Shown piece after piece: positions 6,381 through 38,687 of a stretch of 38,687 bases of DNA. The notes beneath the pieces were generated by a model, which ran no database searches, was not told the origin of the DNA, and saw nothing but the letters and a program-made list of their open reading frames with translations. Origin of the DNA: Methylomonas rivi (GTDB taxonomy: Bacteria; Pseudomonadota; Gammaproteobacteria; Methylococcales; Methylomonadaceae); the NCBI RefSeq assembly GCF_024505165.1, contig NZ_JANIBK010000027.1, positions 1 through 38,687 on the forward strand, read 5' to 3'. Position 1 is the first letter of the stretch. Each line of letters opens with the position of its first letter. A program made the translations under genes and the position numbers.

Positions 6381-9317
6381 TCATGACGCCACATTCAACG
6401 ACAATATGGCCGTGATACCGCCTTCGGCGGCCTTGTTATTCAACTCGGTAGCCAAAATGTAAATCCGACTCCTGTCCACGCCGGCCTTTTCGGTCAAATA
6501 TTTGGCGATATGGTTTGCCCGGCTGACAGCCAGATCGTTCAACCGTTCCGGCTCCGGCGGCATGATGGCCTCCAATTCCCGCCGGGCCAGCGCATAAAAA
6601 TCGGCATCCGGATTGCTTTTGACCCGCGGCGCGCCGAATAAGGTGCGGTCGAAATTTTGCGGAAACACTTCCGCATAAAATTTGGCTAACAAACGCTTAT
6701 ATTCGTCGTCCGACAATTCGATATATTCGGAACGAATTTTCTCGCCCTTATCGCGCAGCTCGCCGGACTTCATTTTTTTTAAAATATCTTTCAAGGCGTC
6801 GAAGCGCATCACCGGCCAATCCTGAATCTCGTACGCCACGCCCTTGATCTCCAGCACCAACTCCGGTTTGGTTGTTAAGGCTTTGGCAATCCGGTCCAGT
6901 TTCGCGCTTTCTTCCGTACTCAGATCGCTGCTACCGGCGGCAAAGCTCACGGTACTGTAATCGTTATCGTCATCAAACAACGAGGCCAGCGCCTTGAAGG
7001 GCGAAGTAACCGCCTTGGTGATCAAATTGACCAGCACATCAGCCACCAAAGACCCCACACTGAATTCAGGATCTTCCAGACTGCCGGTAATGGGAAAATC
7101 CAGATTGATTTTACCGTCGCCGTCCTTCAATAGGGCCACGCCCAATTCCAAAGGCAAGGAGACCGCTTTGGGGTTTTCCACCTTTTCCCCTAATACCAAT
7201 TGATCGATAAATACCTTGTTTTGCGCGGACAACTGGCCTTTTTTGATGCTGTAGGCCAAATTTAGCGCCATTTGGCCTTTCTCGATTCTATAACCGGCAA
7301 ATTCCGCCATATAGGGGGTCACCAATGCTAAAGGCATATGACTAAAATCCAGCGTGATGTCAGAATCGCCGCTTTGCAGGCGATAGTTGCCTTTGATTTT
7401 CACGGTCGCCAGATCATGCACCTTCCCCAGTAATTTCAACTTGACGTCGTCGTCGCTATTGGAGGCAAAACCGTCCACCTCGCCATTCAAGCTGTTCATC
7501 TTGACCACAAAGGGCAAAATCAAAGAATAATCGGCAAAATCAGACTGCCCGTTCTTCATTTCGATTTTGCCTATTTTAACCACAGGCTCTGGACTTTTAG
7601 GCTGTGGTGCAATGGCTTTAACGGCCGTTTTGCTGTCTGACTTGGCGGCTGGTTGCGCCACCAAAATGTCGGCGACGTTGTTGGTACTGTCTTTTTTGAT
7701 CATGAAGCGGATATAGGGCCGGTCGAAAATAACCTTGCCCAATTTAAAATCCTGCTTAGGCACGTCCAACAGCATTTGTTGCACGTCCAATTTGGTCCAT
7801 TTGACAAAGTCTTTGTTATTGGCTTTGTCCCGGGTAATCAGTTGATCGATATTGGCATCGCCCCGATAAGTCAATTGCAGCGGCTCCGTGGCCGACACGT
7901 TTAATTGACCCTGGGTATCGAAATCGCCATCCACCAACTCAAGTTTGACAAATGGCTCCAGATAACTCTGAAAGGTTTTTAACTTGATGTCTTGCAGTTC
8001 CAAGCGCAAATTCGTCGAAAACGGCGCCAGCACCATGTCGCCAGCAAATTTCACATTGCCGGTTTGGTTAAAACGGCTGCTGAATTGCAAAGGCAATCTG
8101 ATACCGTCCTGATTGCGGTAATCCTTTAAGCTGGCATTCAGCTCGCTTAGCTGCAATTGGAGAGGCTTGGGCTGGGTAAAATCCGTAAAGTCGACTTGAT
8201 AATTCGCCAAGGTCAACTCCCCGAGCCGGATATCCCAAGGTTTGACGGCTTCATTTTCCGAAGCCACGGCAGTTGCGGCAGTCTGGTCGCCGGCAAACAA
8301 GCTTTGGTAATTGATTTGACCATCCGCTTGCAGCCAGGATTTGATCAGCGCATTGCTGCTGCTCACGCTGGCAATATCCAGCTGTTGTTTTTGCAAGTCC
8401 AGTTTGATGCCATCGACAGCCAATGAGGCTAAATTAATCAAGCTTTCCGATTTGCCCGGCTCGGTCAGGCTGAGCTGTTTGACATCCACACCGGCGTTAG
8501 TCAATAAAACCTGTGTACCGGCGTCCGTGCTGGAGAAAGCATAATCGGTTTGCAAAGCCAACTGGCCGTCGACAATTTCCAGCGGCAGTTGGTCTTTTAA
8601 AAAAAGTTGCCAAACTTTGGTTAAGGCCAAGCCATCCAGTTTGAGCTGCCCTTTTGAACTCAAGGCCGTCAAATCCAAATCCCCCCGCCACGTTAAATTG
8701 CCTCCCGAACCCAGCTTAAAGCTCAGATCGACTTTTGCCAGCGCGCCGGGTTGAGTGCCGACGCCCGTCACGGTGAGATTAAGCGGACTCACGTTTTCCC
8801 CTGCGTTTGGCCCGGCTTGCAGATCCAGCCAGCCAATTTGGCCTTCTTCCATGGCAAGCTGATGAATCAATATCGGCAGATCGGTGGATTCCGCCGTTGG
8901 CGGAGGTTGCTCATCCTCGGCGGCCGGCGCGGAAAGCTTTTCCATTACCTCGGAAAAATTGAAGCGGCCATCGGCCCGCCGCTCCAGACTGGCGACAGGC
9001 TTGGTTAATTTCACGGCCGCCAAAATCAAACCGCTTTGCTTGATAGACTCAATGACATCAACATCGACAGTCAGTTGCTCGAAACCGAGCAAACTGCCGC
9101 CTTCCGGCAAGGCAACGCTGAAACCCCGCAGTTCCGCATTCAACTCAAAGGGATTGAGATGCACGGCTTGCAACTTTACGCTTAGTCCGGTTTTTTCGGC
9201 CAACAGCACAGGCAATTTATCCGCAGCCAATTTAGGCAAAAGATAAAAACCGGCTCCCGCATAGACTGCCAATAATAACGCTATGACCGCGCAGAAAATC
9301 AGTGTTTTTTTAAGCAT
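6381..9317 (-). CDS. AsmA-like DUF748 inner-membrane protein with OmpA-like C-terminal region
   Basis: A 978-residue protein. One N-terminal transmembrane anchor (about residues 5-27) is followed by the AsmA/DUF748-type opening (LPKLAADKLPVLLAEKTG, then NPFELNAELRGFSV). A very long periplasmic region of repeated amphipathic beta strands follows, typical of AsmA/TamB/YhdP-type bridge proteins that carry phospholipids between membranes. About residues 800-960 contain FAAGSSDLSTEESAKLDRIA and YEIQDWPVMR, the OmpA-like peptidoglycan-binding-type segment often found in DUF748 proteins. The start is 13 bases after the stop of the lipoprotein gene, so the two are probably co-transcribed and may act together in the envelope. 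A role in lipid transport is inferred from the family and has not been shown for DUF748 itself. Confidence 0.88.
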   Translation of the reverse strand: MLKKTLIFCAVIALLLAVYAGAGFYLLPKLAADKLPVLLAEKTGLSVKLQAVHLNPFELNAELRGFSVALPEGGSLLGFEQLTVDVDVIESIKQSGLILAAVKLTKPVASLERRADGRFNFSEVMEKLSAPAAEDEQPPPTAESTDLPILIHQLAMEEGQIGWLDLQAGPNAGENVSPLNLTVTGVGTQPGALAKVDLSFKLGSGGNLTWRGDLDLTALSSKGQLKLDGLALTKVWQLFLKDQLPLEIVDGQLALQTDYAFSSTDAGTQVLLTNAGVDVKQLSLTEPGKSESLINLASLAVDGIKLDLQKQQLDIASVSSSNALIKSWLQADGQINYQSLFAGDQTAATAVASENEAVKPWDIRLGELTLANYQVDFTDFTQPKPLQLQLSELNASLKDYRNQDGIRLPLQFSSRFNQTGNVKFAGDMVLAPFSTNLRLELQDIKLKTFQSYLEPFVKLELVDGDFDTQGQLNVSATEPLQLTYRGDANIDQLITRDKANNKDFVKWTKLDVQQMLLDVPKQDFKLGKVIFDRPYIRFMIKKDSTNNVADILVAQPAAKSDSKTAVKAIAPQPKSPEPVVKIGKIEMKNGQSDFADYSLILPFVVKMNSLNGEVDGFASNSDDDVKLKLLGKVHDLATVKIKGNYRLQSGDSDITLDFSHMPLALVTPYMAEFAGYRIEKGQMALNLAYSIKKGQLSAQNKVFIDQLVLGEKVENPKAVSLPLELGVALLKDGDGKINLDFPITGSLEDPEFSVGSLVADVLVNLITKAVTSPFKALASLFDDDNDYSTVSFAAGSSDLSTEESAKLDRIAKALTTKPELVLEIKGVAYEIQDWPVMRFDALKDILKKMKSGELRDKGEKIRSEYIELSDDEYKRLLAKFYAEVFPQNFDRTLFGAPRVKSNPDADFYALARRELEAIMPPEPERLNDLAVSRANHIAKYLTEKAGVDRSRIYILATELNNKAAEGGITAILSLNVAS

Positions 9318-15563: not shown

Positions 15564-16450
15564 TAAAACACCTGTTGATCAAGAAGACGCATAAGATACT
15601 GGCCATAGCCGTTTTTAATCAGCGGCCTTGCCAATTGTTCGATTTTTTCCTTGCCGATCCAGCCGCTACGCCAGGCGATTTCTTCCAGGCACGCCACTTT
15701 CAGGCCCTGGCGATTTTCGATGGTTTCTATGAAATTGCCCGCTTCGATCAAACTGCCGTGGGTGCCCGTGTCGAGCCAAGCATAGCCGCGCCCCATGATT
15801 TCCACGCTGAGTTGTTTTTGAGCCAAATAGGCTTTGTTAACGTCGGTGATTTCCAATTCGCCGCGCGGAGACGGTGTTAAATTGCCGGCAATATCGACGA
15901 CCTGGTTATCGTAAAAATACAGCCCGGTAACCGCATAATTGCTTTTGGGTTTGGCGGGTTTTTCCTCCAACGAGGTTGCTTGGCCTTGGTTATCGAAATT
16001 GACCACGCCGTAGCGTTCCGGATCGTTGACATGATACGCAAATACCGTGGCCCCGCTGTCTCGGCTGCCGGCCTTTTTAAGTTGTACATGCAGATCGTGG
16101 CCATAAAAGATATTATCGCCCAGCACCAACGCGCTAGGGCAATTGCCGATAAAGCCGCGCCCTATGATAAAGGCTTGGGCCAGACCGTCCGGGCTGGGCT
16201 GCACGGCATAAGACAAATTGATCCCCCAATCGCTACCGTCGCCCAAAAGATGCTGAAACAACGGCGTGTCTTGCGGGGTGGATATGATCAAAATATCCCG
16301 GATACCCGCCAGCATTAAGGTACTGAGCGGATAATAAATCATCGGTTTATCGTAAATCGGCAACAGTTGTTTGGATACGGCTTTGGTCACCGGATACAGG
16401 CGGGTACCCGAACCGCCAGCCAGAATAATGCCTTTACGTTGCGTCGTCAT
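15563..16450 (-). CDS. rfbA: Glucose-1-phosphate thymidylyltransferase
   Basis: A 295-residue nucleotidyltransferase, the usual RfbA length, which makes dTDP-glucose from dTTP and glucose-1-phosphate. The N-terminal nucleotide-binding signature [25 protein letters not shown] is intact, as are [28 protein letters not shown] and [16 protein letters not shown]. Its ATG overlaps the rfbD stop in ATGA form and its own stop overlaps the rfbC start. It supplies the first intermediate for the O-antigen or other rhamnose-containing surface glycans. Confidence 0.97.
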
Positions 16451-21920: not shown

Positions 21921-22682
21921 TCACGCTTCAAGGAAAGCTACTTCAAAGCGATCCTTTCCTTGAACGGCTTGATAAAATTGAACATCACAGCCTCTCGCTG
22001 ACACCCAATCTCTAATTTTTTCCTTGTGATCAGTCAACATTCTTATTCCAAACGTCACACTTTTCATAAGTTCGGCTGGATAAGTACGGGTTCCCGAACC
22101 AATATCATGATCCAAAATTCGCCACTCTCTTTCATAATTCCAATCAGTGAACTTTGTTAGCAAGCTAAGCTTAACTTTGTCCTCAATTGGCGTGTTATAG
22201 AAGTTTATTTCTGGGTACTCTTTTTCATAAGAAACCTGTTGGGCACCACCAAACACTGGAGTGTAATCTGTAGCTTCGAATTCTATGCAGAAGCCTTTGT
22301 GATCATCCGCATAATGAGACCACATCAAAATACTATCACGCCGCTCTGTAAGGCAATAAATCCCAACACAATGGCGAAATTCGTGAATCAAATCGTTCTT
22401 TAGAGCCTCCCAAACTGCAGGATTACGATGCCTATCTTCAAGATAGATAGCCAAAGCTTCAGCGCTAGCTGAATGGTGAGTAAGACGTGGGTTATTTGCT
22501 AAAACTGCCCGAACAAGCTGATCCATGATCTTATCTGGCTCATGGGTGAATTCGAATGAAGGAGTACATTCAAATGGGTCATTAAACTCAGCTGCTGATG
22601 AGAAATATACCGATGCTGTCGAGAAAAGAGCCTCACTGAATTCGTTAAGTTTTCCAAATTTATATAACCGTTCAATGGTCAT
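21921..22682 (-). CDS. DUF2971 domain protein
   Basis: A 253-residue cytoplasmic protein. The layout fits the DUF2971 family: an N-terminal LYKFGKLNEFSEALFS, then YFSSAAEFNDPFECTPSF, CLTERRDSILMWSHYADDHKGFCIEFE in the middle, and FTDWNYEREWRI near residue 190. The biochemical function of the family is not established; members are frequent in accessory and defence-rich regions. The gene is noticeably richer in A and T than its neighbours and sits between the repeat element (ending at 21912) and kdsB, which suggests acquisition by transfer. An AGGAC site lies about nine bases before the ATG. It is not part of the kdsB operon's coupled series. Confidence 0.85.
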   Translation of the reverse strand: MTIERLYKFGKLNEFSEALFSTASVYFSSAAEFNDPFECTPSFEFTHEPDKIMDQLVRAVLANNPRLTHHSASAEALAIYLEDRHRNPAVWEALKNDLIHEFRHCVGIYCLTERRDSILMWSHYADDHKGFCIEFEATDYTPVFGGAQQVSYEKEYPEINFYNTPIEDKVKLSLLTKFTDWNYEREWRILDHDIGSGTRTYPAELMKSVTFGIRMLTDHKEKIRDWVSARGCDVQFYQAVQGKDRFEVAFLEA

Positions 22683-22726
22683 TTAAAAAGTCCTGGTGCC
22701 ACGCTAAATAACGCAAAGTCAGAGGC

Positions 22727-23491
22727 CTAAACCTGCCCCAACCTCAACCCCACCCGCCATAAATCTTCCTCGGTATCCACGCCGGCTTCCGGGGTTTGTT
22801 CGACGATATTTACCAGCACTTTTTCGCCATACCACAAAATTCTTAGCTGCTCCAGGGATTCGACGCTTTCCAGCGGCGATGCCGGCCAGCTGCAGTAGCG
22901 TTGCAAAAAACCGACCGTATAGGCATACATGCCGATGTGGCGGTAATGCGGATCGCTGGCGTCGCCGATTACATGATGCTCCGGGAAACTGGCGCGGTTC
23001 CACGGTATCGGCGCCCGGCTGAAATACAGCGCGTAACCGTTTTTATCCAGCACCACTTTCACCGCGTTGGGGTTGAAGATTTCGTCGGCATCCTGGATTT
23101 TGGCGGCCAGAGTGGCGATGCCGGCCTGGGTTTGTCCGGCCAACGCGGCGGCCACGTCGCGAATGTAGGCCGGCGGAATCAAGGGCTCGTCGCCTTGCAG
23201 ATTCACCACAATATCGTCGGCCCGCCAACCCAATTTTTCCGCCACTTCGGCAATGCGCTCGGTGCCGGACTGGTGATTCGGATCGGTCATCGCCACTTGT
23301 ATACCCAGAGCGGAAACGGTATCGAAGATGCGTTGATCGTCAGTCGCCACCACCACCTGCCCGGCATCCGCTTCCAACGCCCGTTCGCAGACGTGCACTA
23401 TCATCGGCTTGCCGGCAATATCCAGCAAGGGCTTGCCGGGCAAGCGGGTCGAGGCGTAGCGGGCCGGAATGACGACTTTGAACCCGCTCAT
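22727..23491 (-). CDS. kdsB: 3-deoxy-manno-octulosonate cytidylyltransferase
   Basis: A 254-residue CMP-KDO synthetase of standard length that activates KDO with CTP for attachment to lipid A. The N-terminal nucleotide-binding loop [19 protein letters not shown] is intact, followed by [38 protein letters not shown] and [13 protein letters not shown], all family signatures. Its ATG overlaps the trm112 stop by four bases. It is the last gene of the exbB-exbD-lpxK-trm112-kdsB operon; transcription then runs towards the DUF2971 gene with only 44 bases between. Confidence 0.97.
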
Positions 23492-31489: not shown

Positions 31490-31849
31490 ATGGCGAAAAT
31501 CCCCTACCTCGTCAAACGAAATAACATTTATTATTTTCGTATCCGCATCCCCGCAAAACATCGCGACTCTTTAAATTTTCAAGAAATTGTCCGCAGCTTA
31601 AAGACGGAAAATCGAGAAGAAGCTACCCTGAAAGCTTTGAAGCTCGCCGCTAATTTCAAAGCCTTATTGCATGATTTAAAAACCGGCATGACCGACAAAA
31701 TCAGCCGAGTTAAGTTACTGGATAGTTCGCTCGACACGCCTTCTAAGCAGTTCGAAGAAAATTCACCGCCGGTCGTTGCTTGCTCAACCACTTTAACCGG
31801 TGATTTTTCGTATGGAAAAAGGTCATCGAGACCTAAGTCATCGATGTAG
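31490..31849 (+). pseudogene. N-terminal fragment of a tyrosine-type integrase
   Basis: A 119-codon frame with an AGAGG ribosome-binding site before the ATG. Residues 1 to about 65 (MAKIPYLVKRNNIYYFRIRI, then IVRSLKTENREEATLKALKLA) match the N-terminal domain (DUF6538-type) of phage and island integrases, which bind arm-type DNA. A full integrase has about 400-500 residues with a catalytic Arg...His-x-x-Arg...Tyr domain; none of this follows, and the frame ends at 31849 just before the hexanucleotide array. It is therefore a remnant. Its position behind tRNA-Ser fits an island that integrated at the tRNA 3' end. Its last 40 or so residues may not be integrase-derived. Confidence 0.75.
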
Positions 31850-32175
31850 TCTTCGTCGAGATCGTCTAAATCTAGGTCTGGGTCTGGGTCTGGGTCTGGG
31901 TCTAGGTCTAGGTCTAGGTCTAGGTCTAGGTCTAGGTCTAGGTCTAGGTCTAGGTCTGGGTCTAGGTCTAGGTCTAGGTCTGGGTCTGGGTCTGGGTTTT
32001 CTAGATATGTCAGTTTTTCTGAAAGACAATACCTTTCACGAGCCAAACTATCTCGTTTTCCATACGCACCTATCTCGTTAAAATCCAAATTCTTTATTTC
32101 ACGCTCAATATCTTTTATTCTCTTGGCTATATTTTCAGGCGTAACATCACTTGCATTATCGATTCCATTTATCAT
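31579..32175 (-). CDS. Protein with 21-unit Asp-Leu/Asp-Pro repeat, antisense to the integrase fragment
   Basis: A 198-residue frame with a good ribosome-binding site (GGAAGGAAG six bases before the ATG). Residues 1-59 are charged and helical (VTPENIAKRIKDIEREIKNL). They are followed by about 45 residues of strictly alternating Asp with Leu or Pro, then an acidic stretch (DDLDEDYIDDLGLDDLFPYE), and a Ser/Val-rich tail of about 75 residues. That tail is encoded by the strand opposite the integrase fragment (31579-31849), so it is probably a chance extension unless the integrase is dead. I do not recognise the N-terminal domain. The repeat would be highly acidic and probably extended, perhaps metal-binding, which is speculation. 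The ribosome-binding site and intact frame through the repeat are the main support. Confidence 0.55.
   Translation of the reverse strand: MINGIDNASDVTPENIAKRIKDIEREIKNLDFNEIGAYGKRDSLARERYCLSEKLTYLENPDPDPDLDLDLDPDLDLDLDLDLDLDLDLDLDPDPDPDPDLDLDDLDEDYIDDLGLDDLFPYEKSPVKVVEQATTGGEFSSNCLEGVSSELSSNLTRLILSVMPVFKSCNKALKLAASFKAFRVASSRFSVFKLRTIS
31871..31996. repeat. Hexanucleotide tandem repeat, 21 units of TCTRGG
   Basis: An uninterrupted 126-base array: 13 units TCTAGG and 8 units TCTGGG, with no other variation. The order from left to right is one A-type, four G-type, nine A-type, one G-type, three A-type, three G-type. On the minus strand the units read GAC CTA or GAC CCA. Because the unit length is a multiple of three, copy-number change would lengthen or shorten the encoded repeat without a frameshift. 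Each A-type unit carries the tetranucleotide CTAG, which is usually rare in proteobacteria. Confidence 0.97.
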
Positions 32176-35596: not shown

Positions 35597-36897
35597 GTTT
35601 TCCGCGTTACCCTAGCTACAAGGACAGCGGCGTCGAATGGTTGGGCGAAGTACCGGAGCATTGGAATGTCACACGTTTGAGATTTCTATGCCAAATTGAA
35701 ACTGGAGATGCAGATACTGTAGACGCAGTTGAAGATGGAGAATATCCATTTTTCGTTCGCTCATCGACTGTAGAAAGAATTGGCAGATTTACCCATGACT
35801 GCGAGGCAGTATTAACGGCAGGCGACGGGGTTGGCGTTGGCAAAGTATTTCATCATTTTGAAGGAAAGTTTTGCGCTCATCAGAGGGTCTATATCTTTAG
35901 AGATTTTCGAGATATAAAAGGGCGATTTTTTTATAACTACATTAAAGAATTATTTCTGCGCGTAGTATTAGAAGGCACGGCAAAATCAACCGTTGATTCT
36001 CTAAGACGGCCCATGATTGCGGATTTTCAGATAACTGTGCCTCCGCTTTCTGAACAACAACAAATCGCCGCCTTCCTCGACGGCGAAACCGCCAAGATTG
36101 ACGCGCTGATTGCCGAACAGCAACAGCTGATCGAACTGCTGAAAGAAAAGCGGCAGGCGGTGATTTCCCACGTCGTCACCAAAGGCCTCAACCCCGATGC
36201 GCCAATGAAGGATTCCGGCATAGCATGGCTGGGCGAGGTGCCGGAGCATTGGGAAATTTCACGGCTAGGCTATGAATCTTGGGTTAGGGCTAGATTGGGC
36301 TGGAAGGGGCTGAAAGCTGAGGAATACGTAGATGATGGATTTGTTTTTCTTGCAACACCTAATATCAAAGGGTTGAGCATTGATTTTGAGAACGTCAATT
36401 TCATCAATGAACATCGCTATGATGAATCACCCGAAATTAAGCTCAGAGTTGGTGATGTCTTATTAGCTAAAGACGGCTCAACTCTTGGCACCGTCAATGT
36501 GGTTCGCTCTCTGCCGAGACCAACAACAGTAAATAGTTCGATTGCCGTCATTACGCCCAATCTATCCTTAAGCGGCATTTTTCTTTTTTACTTATTTCAA
36601 GGATTCTATATGGAGAACACCATACAGAGGATCAAAGGCGGCATGGGAGTTCCACATCTTTTCCAAGCAGATTTGAACAAGTTCTACATTCCACTACCGC
36701 CATTTAAAGAACAACAATCGATTGCAACCTTCCTCGACAACGAAACCACTAAACTCGACACCCTCACTGCCGAAGCCAAACGCGGCATTGAGCTACTGCA
36801 AGAACGCCGCACCGCTCTGATTTCCGCCGCCGTCACCGGCAAGATTGACGTGCGCGGTCTAGTCTCTACGGCAATACCGGAGGAAGCCGCCGCATGA
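35593..36897 (+). CDS. hsdS: Type I restriction-modification specificity subunit
   Basis: A 434-residue HsdS from the ATG at 35593, overlapping the hsdM stop as ATGA; an earlier frame start at 35551 lies inside hsdM. It has two half-repeats, each with an opening motif ([32 protein letters not shown]), a variable target recognition domain (about residues 25-150 and 225-365), and a conserved helical spacer ([39 protein letters not shown]). Each recognition domain reads one half of a bipartite target. The variable domains are AT-richer than the conserved blocks, a sign of domain exchange. Its TGA overlaps the ATG of the hsdR remnant. Confidence 0.96.
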
Positions 36898-37073
36898 GAA
36901 ATCTGCACCGGGAAGTTAATTTCGAAAATGAAATCTGCGAACACCTCGCCGTCACTGGTAAGATCGATGTTAGATATTCATCCTTTAGTTGGAGTCTTCA
37001 ACATGCAAGCCATCGAACTCGAAACCGACATTACGCCGGATGGCCATATTCAATTGCCCAGCCCATTGCGTAA
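36894..37073 (+). pseudogene. hsdR remnant fused to an hsdS-like 3' relic
   Basis: A 59-codon frame starting at the ATGA overlap with hsdS, exactly where hsdR belongs. The first 19 residues, [19 protein letters not shown], match the N-terminus of type I restriction endonuclease subunits (HsdR, about 1000 residues). The frame then continues as AVTGKIDVR (36948-36974), which repeats the C-terminal motif of the intact hsdS (36829-36855) at protein level (9 of 9) but only 20 of 27 bases. After that it reads out of frame through the start of vapB to a TAA at 37071. The nuclease/ATPase motor is therefore missing here. An intact hsdR elsewhere cannot be excluded. Confidence 0.8.
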
Positions 37074-37266
37074 CGTCTTTGGTCGCCATGCGCGCTTGAT
37101 TTTGCTATTGGACGAGCGGCAACCTGCAGATTCCCCCTCACTCCGTCAAGCCAATGATACGGACGCTTTTCTCGCCGCGTTGGCCGGTGGTTTAAGCGAG
37201 GATTTTCCCAATGATATTGACGAAACTGATTTAGGTATCGACACTCCGCGACGAGAATTGGATTGA
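37003..37266 (+). CDS. VapB-like antitoxin
   Basis: An 87-residue protein starting at the ATG at 37003 with TTGGAG upstream; the frame is open from 36928, but the earlier part lies in the hsdR relic. The N-terminal half (MQAIELETDITPDGHIQLP, then SPLRNVFGRHARLILLLDE) resembles an AbrB-type swapped-hairpin DNA-binding domain. The acidic C-terminus (DFPNDIDETDLGIDTPRRELD) would wrap the toxin. The neighbouring PIN-domain toxin begins at its last base, so they form a coupled pair, probably autoregulated. Confidence 0.82.
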   Translation: MQAIELETDITPDGHIQLPSPLRNVFGRHARLILLLDERQPADSPSLRQANDTDAFLAALAGGLSEDFPNDIDETDLGIDTPRRELD

Positions 37267-37667
37267 TGCGCTATTTACTGGACACTAATGCCGCTATTGC
37301 GTTGCTGAAAGAGCATCCGGGGGTTCTGCATCATGTTCGGCGAGTCGGCAGTTCCGCCTTATTACTTTGTGCGCCAGTCGAAGCCGAGTTGTGGTATGGC
37401 GTCTTTAAAAGTGCCCAACAGCAACGCAACCAGATGCGTGTGACCACCTTGTTGGAATGGTTACCAAGCTTGCCCTTTGCGGGACAGGCACCGCGTCATT
37501 TTGGGAAAATTCGTGCCGATCTGGCAAGGCTAGGCACGCCGATAGGCCCTTATGATTTACAAATTGCCGCCATTGCCCGCGCCCATAATTTAGTTTTGGT
37601 TACACACAACACCCGCGAATTCTCTCGGGTTCAAGGTTTGATTTTGGAGGATTGGGAAACGGATTGA
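37266..37667 (+). CDS. VapC-like PIN-domain ribonuclease toxin
   Basis: A 133-residue protein from the ATG at 37266 (one base overlaps the antitoxin stop; a TTG one codon upstream is also in frame). PIN-domain acidic residues appear in order: YLLDTNAAIALL (Asp6), APVEAELWYGV (Glu about 40), GPYDLQIAAIARAHNLVLVTHNTREFSRV (Asp about 97, then the Thr-His-Asn-Thr strand), and VQGLILEDW at the end. The family cleaves tRNA or rRNA and is held inactive by its antitoxin. The pair sits at the place of the missing hsdR, a plausible scar-stabilising insertion. Confidence 0.92.
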   Translation: MRYLLDTNAAIALLKEHPGVLHHVRRVGSSALLLCAPVEAELWYGVFKSAQQQRNQMRVTTLLEWLPSLPFAGQAPRHFGKIRADLARLGTPIGPYDLQIAAIARAHNLVLVTHNTREFSRVQGLILEDWETD

Positions 37668-37713: not shown

Positions 37714-38382
37714 ATGACACAAATCACTTTCACCCCCGCCGATTACACCGAAATTCGCCGCCGTAGCGTGGACCTACACAGCAAAATTTTCAAGAAGCTC
37801 ACCAAAGATGACGACAAAACCTGCGCCAAACATCTCGGCGTTTGGCGGAACAAAGCCGTTGCTCTGGAAAGCGACGAGGAAGTCGATTTGTTTGCCGATT
37901 ACGCTATTTATGGTTACCGGCCGCGCGGTTTCAATATGGCGGAAAAATATCTGCGCCTGTTCAGCCGGGACGCCGACGAATTTGAACTGGCCTTGCTTCG
38001 CCACATGCGCCATGCCCACTATGCGATTTATCAAGCCGATGAAACCGACGGCAACGAATTTTTGCAGGCCACCGATGTGTTCAGCAAGCAGACTTATCGA
38101 TTATTGGATCGGCAAATGGCTCAAACTGCTTACACAGGGCTCATGCTAGCGGGTTACCTGATCGACTTTGACGATTTCACGATACAAACCGGTGGCACAG
38201 TGAAAGTCACACGCGAAATCTTGCAGGCCGACGAAGTGGTTCATGTGATCGATCATATCGAGGATGAACAATTGGCCAGCTTTCTCAGCGACGCCGCGAA
38301 CGGCGCCAAACTGGCGCGTGCGGTTGTTTCCGCGGCGTTCAGGCTGGGACAAACCGGTAATTTCCAACATCAGGCGGTTTAA
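37714..38382 (+). CDS. Unrecognised 222-residue protein in the restriction-modification locus
   Basis: I do not recognise this protein. It is soluble, mostly helical, with a basic N-terminal part (SVDLHSKIFKKLTKDDDKTC), a tyrosine- and arginine-rich middle (DYAIYGYRPRGFNMAEKYLRLF) and HMRHAHYAIYQADETDGNEFL, where His and Asp residues could bind metal. Codon use is close to hsdM and hsdS and there is no frame disruption. The ATG lacks a good ribosome-binding site and 46 bases separate it from vapC. Because it lies in the same direction after vapBC it may be a defence accessory gene, but no function is supported by sequence. Confidence 0.7.
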   Translation: MTQITFTPADYTEIRRRSVDLHSKIFKKLTKDDDKTCAKHLGVWRNKAVALESDEEVDLFADYAIYGYRPRGFNMAEKYLRLFSRDADEFELALLRHMRHAHYAIYQADETDGNEFLQATDVFSKQTYRLLDRQMAQTAYTGLMLAGYLIDFDDFTIQTGGTVKVTREILQADEVVHVIDHIEDEQLASFLSDAANGAKLARAVVSAAFRLGQTGNFQHQAV

Positions 38383-38632
38383 TCGATCAACGCATCAAAT
38401 CATGCGCATACCTGCTAGACATACCCACGCCGAAAGTAATAACATTGTTAGCACAATTGTAACTATTCAGCGTAGGTTGGGTTAGGCGCTAGCCGTAACC
38501 CAACGCATCGGCTTATGGCGGTGCAATGGCTTCAATAGTTGGGTTACGCTCTATCGAGCTAACCCAACCTACGCAATTGATCCGCATCGGCCGGCATTCA
38601 CTGAATAGTTACGCACAATTAAGGAGGTTGTC
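38383..38632. other. Intergenic region holding a palindromic element
   Basis: It carries the nested palindrome listed separately, and the strong ribosome-binding site AAGGAGG (38621-38627) for the next gene. No gene of its own is seen in these 250 bases. Confidence 0.6.
38455..38620. mobile_element. MITE-like nested palindrome
   Basis: Perfect 16-base inverted termini GCGTAGGTTGGGTTAG (38470-38485) and CTAACCCAACCTACGC (38559-38574) enclose a 105-base element that also contains inverted CGTAACCCAACG/GTTGGGTTACG copies. Outside it, AATTGT plus AACTATTCAG (38455-38470) is mirrored by CTGAATAGTT plus ACGCACAATT (38601-38620), with a four-base difference. The TAGGTTGGGTTAG core is a recurrent palindromic repeat in many proteobacteria. 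No transposase is present, so any mobility would be in trans. Confidence 0.75.
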
Positions 38633-38687
38633 ATGCGCAGTCAATTAAGAAAAATCGGCAATTCACGCGGCGTCATCATCCCAGCCT
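38633..38687 (+). CDS. MazE/AbrB-type antitoxin, partial (runs off right edge)
   Basis: Only 18 residues are available: MRSQLRKIGNSRGVIIPA. The KIGNSRGVIIP sequence is the opening of the SpoVT-AbrB swapped-hairpin domain in MazE/PemI-type antitoxins (L-x-K-x-G-N-S-x-G-V-x-I-P). The start is supported by the Shine-Dalgarno AAGGAGG five bases upstream. A toxin gene (MazF/ChpB or PIN) is expected just beyond the window. It is the second antitoxin-type gene in this locus. Confidence 0.85.
   Translation, partial: MRSQLRKIGNSRGVIIPA

Follow-up and report, generated by a model that had tools for sequence, protein, structure and literature searches.

The type I restriction locus and its cargo

The stretch of DNA analysed here (the window, 38687 bases) is the entire contig C27 of a draft genome of 382 contigs and 4.52 Mb that is 99.97% complete. 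It carries a type I restriction operon (Table 1) in which hsdM and hsdS are intact and overlap by ATGA. HsdM possesses both the HsdM_N and the N6-methylase domains (PF12161, PF02384), and HsdS contains two target recognition domains, seen as two stretches matching PF01420. HsdM is 73-88% identical to its counterparts in the best 80 of 587 loci, with a maximum of 91% among genomes of its own order. Before the contig ends, hsdR is represented at this locus by a head of 19 codons.

Downstream lies a putative VapBC pair, in which the PIN-domain toxin overlaps a small upstream gene at TGATG (37264-37268), although the assignment of that gene as the antitoxin is weak. The vapB-like gene has a weak match to the RelN antitoxin (0.0075, under the cut-off), while vapC matches the NCBIfam model for tRNA(fMet)-specific VapC at 5.7e-37, also under the cut-off. 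No family in Pfam or PADLOC was found for the 222-aa gene that follows (37714-38382), a candidate defence-associated gene that has a relative among the cargo between hsdS and hsdR at locus L130. The contig then continues through a dispersed repeat, presumably MITE-like, into the start of a gene that we take to be mazE-like.

Table 1. Features of the restriction locus and the adjoining cargo, in window coordinates
Feature	Position	Strand	Evidence or remark
hsdM, 586 aa	33836..35596	+	PF02384 4.5e-61, PF12161 4.1e-26, PADLOC MTase_I 4.4e-278
hsdS, 434 aa	35593..36897	+	ATGA overlap with hsdM; PF01420 1.6e-27 (two stretches), PADLOC Specificity_I 1.5e-120
Scar micro-ORF, 59 aa, hsdR head and hsdS tail fused in frame	36894..37073	+	Start coupled to the hsdS stop by ATGA
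hsdR head relic, first 19 codons, putative recipient hsdR start	36894..36951	+	Matrix 57.5 bits; BLASTN ends near 36951
CGCCG pentamer present in both the hsdR start and the hsdS tail, a probable microhomology	36947..36951	+	hsdR starts of L126/L125, hsdS tails
Putatively foreign hsdS tail relic, AVTGKIDVR	36947..36974	+	28 nt 93% to G026 hsdS tail; 35.9 bits
vapB-like antitoxin gene	37003..37266	+	28 nt past the AVTGKIDVR codons; 57% (residues 32-87) to L127 cargo antitoxin
vapC, PIN-domain toxin	37266..37667	+	PF01850 2e-16; 74% to VapC in the L127 hsdS-hsdR slot
222-aa cargo gene	37714..38382	+	49% full-length to the gene directly 3' of hsdS in L130
Dispersed repeat	38457..38612	.	44 matches in its own genome, itself counted
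Start of presumed mazE-like gene, cut by contig end	38633..38687	+	80% DNA identity, 56 nt, to L126 slot gene

A chimeric reading frame downstream of hsdS

The 59-aa frame that follows hsdS is a composite of two gene ends. A position matrix built from the hsdR starts of 85 relatives, with the window left out, scores 57.5 bits at 36903, compared with approximately 0 at the next-best site on either strand of the window and a maximum of 7.8 bits on mononucleotide shuffles (n=20). A second matrix, representing the last nine columns of hsdS in 86 relatives, scores 35.9 bits at 36948, which equals the score of the real hsdS tail at 36829; the next-best site in the window reaches 6.7 and the shuffles at most 11.3. 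The first-pass annotation had described a frame that starts in the ATGA overlap with the hsdS stop, reads as HsdR for 19 residues and continues as the HsdS terminus AVTGKIDVR, and the join that it reported is thus confirmed. Its left boundary of 36829 falls within the tail of the intact hsdS, and the scar frame itself occupies 36894-37073.

The breakpoint can be placed to within a few bases. Across 14 distinct loci, among them L204 with a presumed hsdR, BLASTN matches to hsdR starts end at 36949-36951 in 8 cases and within 36946-36958 in all; a fifteenth match, to L017, is itself a relic. DNA of the hsdS type begins by 36947, from which point 28 nt are 93% identical to the hsdS tail in genome G026. 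Since homology to hsdR ends near 36951 and hsdS-type DNA extends from 36947 on, the pentamer CGCCG (36947-36951) is common to both. The tail portion is 74% identical (20/27) to the DNA of the neighbouring hsdS, compared with 85% for the best others, and the neighbour ranks 33rd among the 96 tails compared. Accordingly, the tail is no recent local copy, as the first-pass annotation had also held, and derives from a different hsdS.

It is very improbable that this frame is an independent gene, encoding, for instance, a small peptide modulator of HsdR-HsdS assembly. The frame is open, its start is coupled to hsdS, and the chimeras of loci L058, L061 and L019 described below are likewise in frame. 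However, breakpoints vary by locus, and the vapB start precedes the end of the frame by 71 nt, such that the 3' half overlaps vapB out of frame. Even at an E-value limit of 1, Pfam assigned no family to the 59-aa product. When E was allowed to reach 10, some match to the frame was found in 64 of 151 genomes (its own included), the best six after its own being hsdR starts in long frames; a match over the whole frame was found in none of the 150 other genomes at E <0.01. An independent, conserved small gene was therefore rejected, and the agreement of the first 19 residues with the hsdR starts of 85 relatives upholds the composite reading.

The hsdS-hsdR slot in relatives

Relatives were collected through HsdM from named genomes, of whose 587 loci the best 80 were kept, from genomes of the same order and of the same phylum, and from plasmids. 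Among the 89 relatives with both genes, the gap between hsdS and hsdR is <60 bp in 15, 71 bp in one and at least 300 bp in 73; the slot between these genes usually carries extra genes. Eight plasmid loci were fetched, seven of which have both genes, two of these directly coupled, and no relics were found in these seven. The 97 phage records were all <60% identical to HsdM.

The vapC, the 222-aa gene and the mazE-like gene of the window are all cargo of this slot in relatives. A vapC gene lies between hsdS and hsdR in L127, in L011 (an Allochromatium plasmid) and in L246, and in L127, where VapC is 74% identical to that of the window, hsdR comes directly after it. A relative of the 222-aa gene directly follows hsdS in L130, with hsdR downstream. 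In L126, which belongs to the same genus as the window, a mazE-like gene starts at 6438 and precedes a mazF-like gene; an intact hsdR of 1106 codons begins 1.37 kb after the start of the mazE-like gene. The same locus holds two hsdS-tail relics approximately 150 bp apart just before its mazE-like gene (L126:6188-6382).

The distance from the DVR codons of hsdS to the vapB ATG is 27 nt in G069 and 28 nt in the window, and the tail of the second hsdS (hsdS') together with vapBC thus looks like one imported block. This spacing, which matches that of a real locus, and the fit of both sides of the join to one operon slot speak against an assembly artefact in which two unrelated stretches were joined at CGCCG. 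The distribution of the genome over 382 contigs is what recommends such an artefact, to which we give very little credence.

Equivalent joins at other loci

The slots of 74 relatives (those of at least 60 bp, leaving out L246-L251 and loci lacking hsdS or hsdR) were scanned for relics with the HsdR start and HsdS tail of each locus itself and with generic queries. Relics of hsdS tails, hsdR heads or both were found in 8 of the 74, and the reverse strand of the same 74 intervals, used as a control, gave no relic matches. The thresholds are such that the scan misses the tail of the window itself (43 vs 44), the head in L019 and the tail in L017. In a scan of 62 intervals at lower thresholds, the top scores of the reverse-strand control were 40 (tails) and 34 (heads), so that scores in the high thirties were ignored.

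An adjacent, in-frame head and tail were returned by the automatic scan in two relatives. The join in L058 reads MSLHKEIGFESEICPHFAA and continues in frame as an hsdS tail, while that in L061 passes from a decayed HQEHHFESA, in frame, to NRGTSLLMEHRAVLISAIGTGRIHIRG. Two more were recognised by eye. L019 has a short MSLQREN-like head, below threshold, followed by an in-frame hsdS tail, and L017 has MSNLHKEINFETEI followed by a decayed GKIDVR, below threshold and in another frame. Tails alone occur in L078 (two), L126 (two) and L231, with another in L019; a head alone occurs in L044, the hsdR frame of which stops after 815 codons. The four hosts of the joins are distant from one another, being a member of the Verrucomicrobia, a Zoogloea, a Gallionella and a Gammaproteobacterium. 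Because the breakpoints also differ, we infer that the joins arose independently.

All four joins are followed downstream by an hsdR frame, of 1037 codons in L061, 1112 in L019 and 1063 in L017; in L058 the frame remains open throughout the 1.76 kb of sequence examined. No hsdS tail was found 3' of hsdR within up to 4 kb in 76 loci, of which 36 offered the full 4 kb; the highest score was 40, with the threshold set at 60. Taken together, these results indicate that the join arises within the slot and does not by itself signify loss of hsdR. They run counter to the first-pass annotation, which had taken the join as the mark of an hsdR deletion, had placed a second hsdS downstream of hsdR, and had proposed that relatives be compared for an hsdM-hsdS-hsdR-hsdS order.

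The scar appears to be uncommon. The chimeric peptide of L058, searched at E up to 0.001, had matches in 71 of 311 genomes of the order and in 44 of 398 of the phylum, its own genome being included in each. Every match that began at residue 8 or earlier and reached the tail lay in a frame of at least 440 codons, and the 10 loci with shorter or truncated frames that were inspected proved to be hsdS; no further head-tail join was seen with this peptide among these matches.

The relics of L058 are nearest to the hsdR (84%) and hsdS (89%) of their own locus, which rank first in each case, and those of L078 are nearest to the local hsdS. Local duplication may therefore act at these loci. It would also be predicted if type I loci had briefly stood in tandem, or the slot had been duplicated, and a deletion had fused the start of the first hsdR to the tail of the second hsdS. 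Such a history would leave the second hsdR in place, and thus yield by another route the same end product as the insertion of cargo discussed below. It is nevertheless an improbable origin for the scar in the window, where the tail is unlike that of the local hsdS (33rd of 96), and the locus map shows no further intact locus of this family alongside.

Other gene-end relics were noted in the course of these comparisons. L078 holds relic arrays in both the hsdM-hsdS and the hsdS-hsdR slots (L078:13035-14243 and 15785-16233). Between hsdM and hsdS, there are five copies of the hsdS start 302 bp apart, comprising four relics and the real one, and between hsdS and hsdR there are two hsdS-tail relics. 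In L058, a 40-codon relic of the hsdM tail lies in the hsdM-hsdS slot (L058:4711-4830), and gene-end relics therefore occur in that slot as well. Contig C32 of genome G302 has three hsdS-tail matches approximately 200 bp apart (22489-22977), possibly a tandem array of the L078 kind.

The fate of hsdR in this strain

A cognate hsdR was not found in the strain's own assembly. The best candidate is a homologue on contig C68, which is only 46% identical and lies with other hsdM and hsdS genes; it was rejected as the cognate subunit. Position 38687, where the contig stops, falls in the mazE-like gene, and hence within the slot. The rest of mazE was likewise not found in the assembly, by a search weak enough to miss the window's own 18 residues too. 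Neither was a mazF orthologue, the only MazF-like match in the assembly being 40% identical and located on C80. Since neither the remainder of mazE nor mazF was found, the absent stretch looks like an assembly gap, and hsdR probably lies within it, past 38687.

These results bear directly on the history proposed by the first-pass annotation, in which a locus of the order hsdM-hsdS-hsdR-hsdS2-vapBC lost hsdR and most of hsdS2 by a deletion at short homology, leaving a methyltransferase without a nuclease. The in-frame join with its 5-bp overlap stands and would fit a deletion equally well, and the search of the genome for hsdR, which that annotation had recommended, found no cognate gene; the sequence beyond 38687 was not found in the assembly either. 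Against a deletion stand the 76 loci without an hsdS tail 3' of hsdR (36 with the full 4 kb), the occupation of the hsdS-hsdR slot by vapC and the 222-aa gene in relatives, the coexistence of equivalent joins with a downstream hsdR frame, and the end of the contig within the slot. The deletion is thus one of several readings, unlikely and not the best supported. An orphan methyltransferase is not accepted, because the contig stops in the slot and what should follow (the rest of mazE, mazF and hsdR) was not found in the assembly. A truncated hsdR beside hsdS need not mean loss of restriction.

Insertion of cargo as the probable origin of the scar

The reading that we favour, with a probability of roughly 0.68, is that the scar is the join left by an insertion of cargo into the hsdS-hsdR slot of a type I restriction operon. 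Before the event, the recipient locus would have read hsdM-hsdS-hsdR, the last two genes coupled by ATGA as they are in G126 (L125), and the incoming DNA would have been that of a related locus arranged as hsdS'-vapBC-...-hsdR'. The left end of this DNA, within the hsdS' tail, would have been joined illegitimately to codon 19 of the resident hsdR at the 5-bp CGCCG, and the right end would probably have entered by homologous recombination in hsdR. Such a one-sided capture would be the simplest mechanism. The predicted product is hsdM-hsdS-[19 codons of the old hsdR / 9 codons of hsdS']-vapBC-222-aa gene-mazE...-hsdR, with an intact hsdR expected beyond 38687. Microhomology at the one illegitimate end is seen as CGCCG at 36947-36951, with the ancestral sequences deduced from relatives; five base pairs are short evidence for a mechanism.

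Several observations count against an insertion. A cognate hsdR was not found in the assembly, the right end of the insert is situated beyond the contig, and the scar appears uncommon. The relics of L058 and L078, being nearest to local genes, are at those loci better explained by local duplication than by DNA from elsewhere. Additionally, the L017 join is out of frame, and the hsdR frame of L044 is interrupted after 815 codons.

Relation to known systems

Genes embedded between hsdS and hsdR serve the discovery of defence systems. To our knowledge, the route by which genes enter this slot is not settled. If the insertion of cargo is the correct reading, joins of a recipient hsdR start to a donor hsdS tail are physical records of capture, which allow such events to be counted, ordered and oriented.

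Embedding itself is already known. In an E. coli type I system, DarTG2 is embedded between hsdS and hsdR within the RptR defence island, and the account of this system describes the slot as a possible hotspot of recombination (PMC12255303). The window shares with it a toxin-antitoxin pair between hsdS and hsdR, but gene-end relics or joins of an hsdR start to an hsdS tail are not described in the portion of that report covered here (PMC12255303). Toxin-like genes are also closely associated with HsdR/M/S operons in the case of the PIN-GNAT-EVE genes, although these are other genes, and the part of the source consulted describes no insertion scar (PMC7641849). The variable hsd region of Campylobacter jejuni similarly has an extra gene at a variable type I locus, whereas no scar of the window's kind is described in the sections considered (PMC5183652). 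Type I systems whose duplicated hsdS genes allow switching through recombination resemble the window, as far as the excerpted account goes, in having more than one hsdS sequence per locus (PMC7394358). The second hsdS of the window consists of nine codons and lacks a target recognition domain, and therefore, unlike those systems, does not permit specificity switching.

The proposed mechanism has a counterpart in homology-facilitated illegitimate recombination, which, according to the part of the report available, involves one homologous and one illegitimate end (PMC3240628). Exactly one scarred end would therefore be expected. That process was described for small DNA at low frequency in E. coli, whereas the event in the window is deduced from a natural join (PMC3240628). 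No description of gene-end scars of cargo capture was seen in the open-access literature, as judged mostly from titles and the starts of abstracts, with wording for hsdS fragments or truncated hsdS covered only in small part.

A possible translational relay

The in-frame joins invite a more tentative proposal, possible but doubtful, in which scars of hsdR heads and hsdS tails are a recurrent and selected by-product of cargo capture and the micro-ORF acts as a translational relay. The upstream stop would overlap the start retained in the hsdR head, and the next start would overlap the stop retained in the hsdS tail, such that an otherwise useless micro-ORF would keep captured defence genes coupled to the operon by passing ribosomes on. 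The ATG of the scar frame overlaps the stop of the upstream gene in the window, L061, L019 and L017, and its stop overlaps the start of the next gene in the latter three. In the window, the frame overlaps the end of hsdS and extends past the vapB start; L058 is without overlap. Four of the five joins preserve the reading frame (those of the window, L058, L061 and L019; that of L017 does not), and L019 was recognised partly through its frame. The micro-ORF may be a relay in this sense; these numbers are too small for a claim. Were it so, gene-end relics could tell the order of past cargo insertions.

Further observations in the window

A segment of the window hsdS (36208-36849, HsdS residues 206-419), which contains the second recognition domain, aligns at 79% with the first half of the G126 HsdS; the hsdS genes of L113 and L125 were the loci compared with these residues. 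This match suggests movement of a domain between HsdS positions, and can be likened to the domain movement described for Helicobacter in the part of that report drawn on here (PMC3077401). Upstream of the operon, on the reverse strand, an ORF at 31579-32175 contains a long DP/DL dipeptide repeat.
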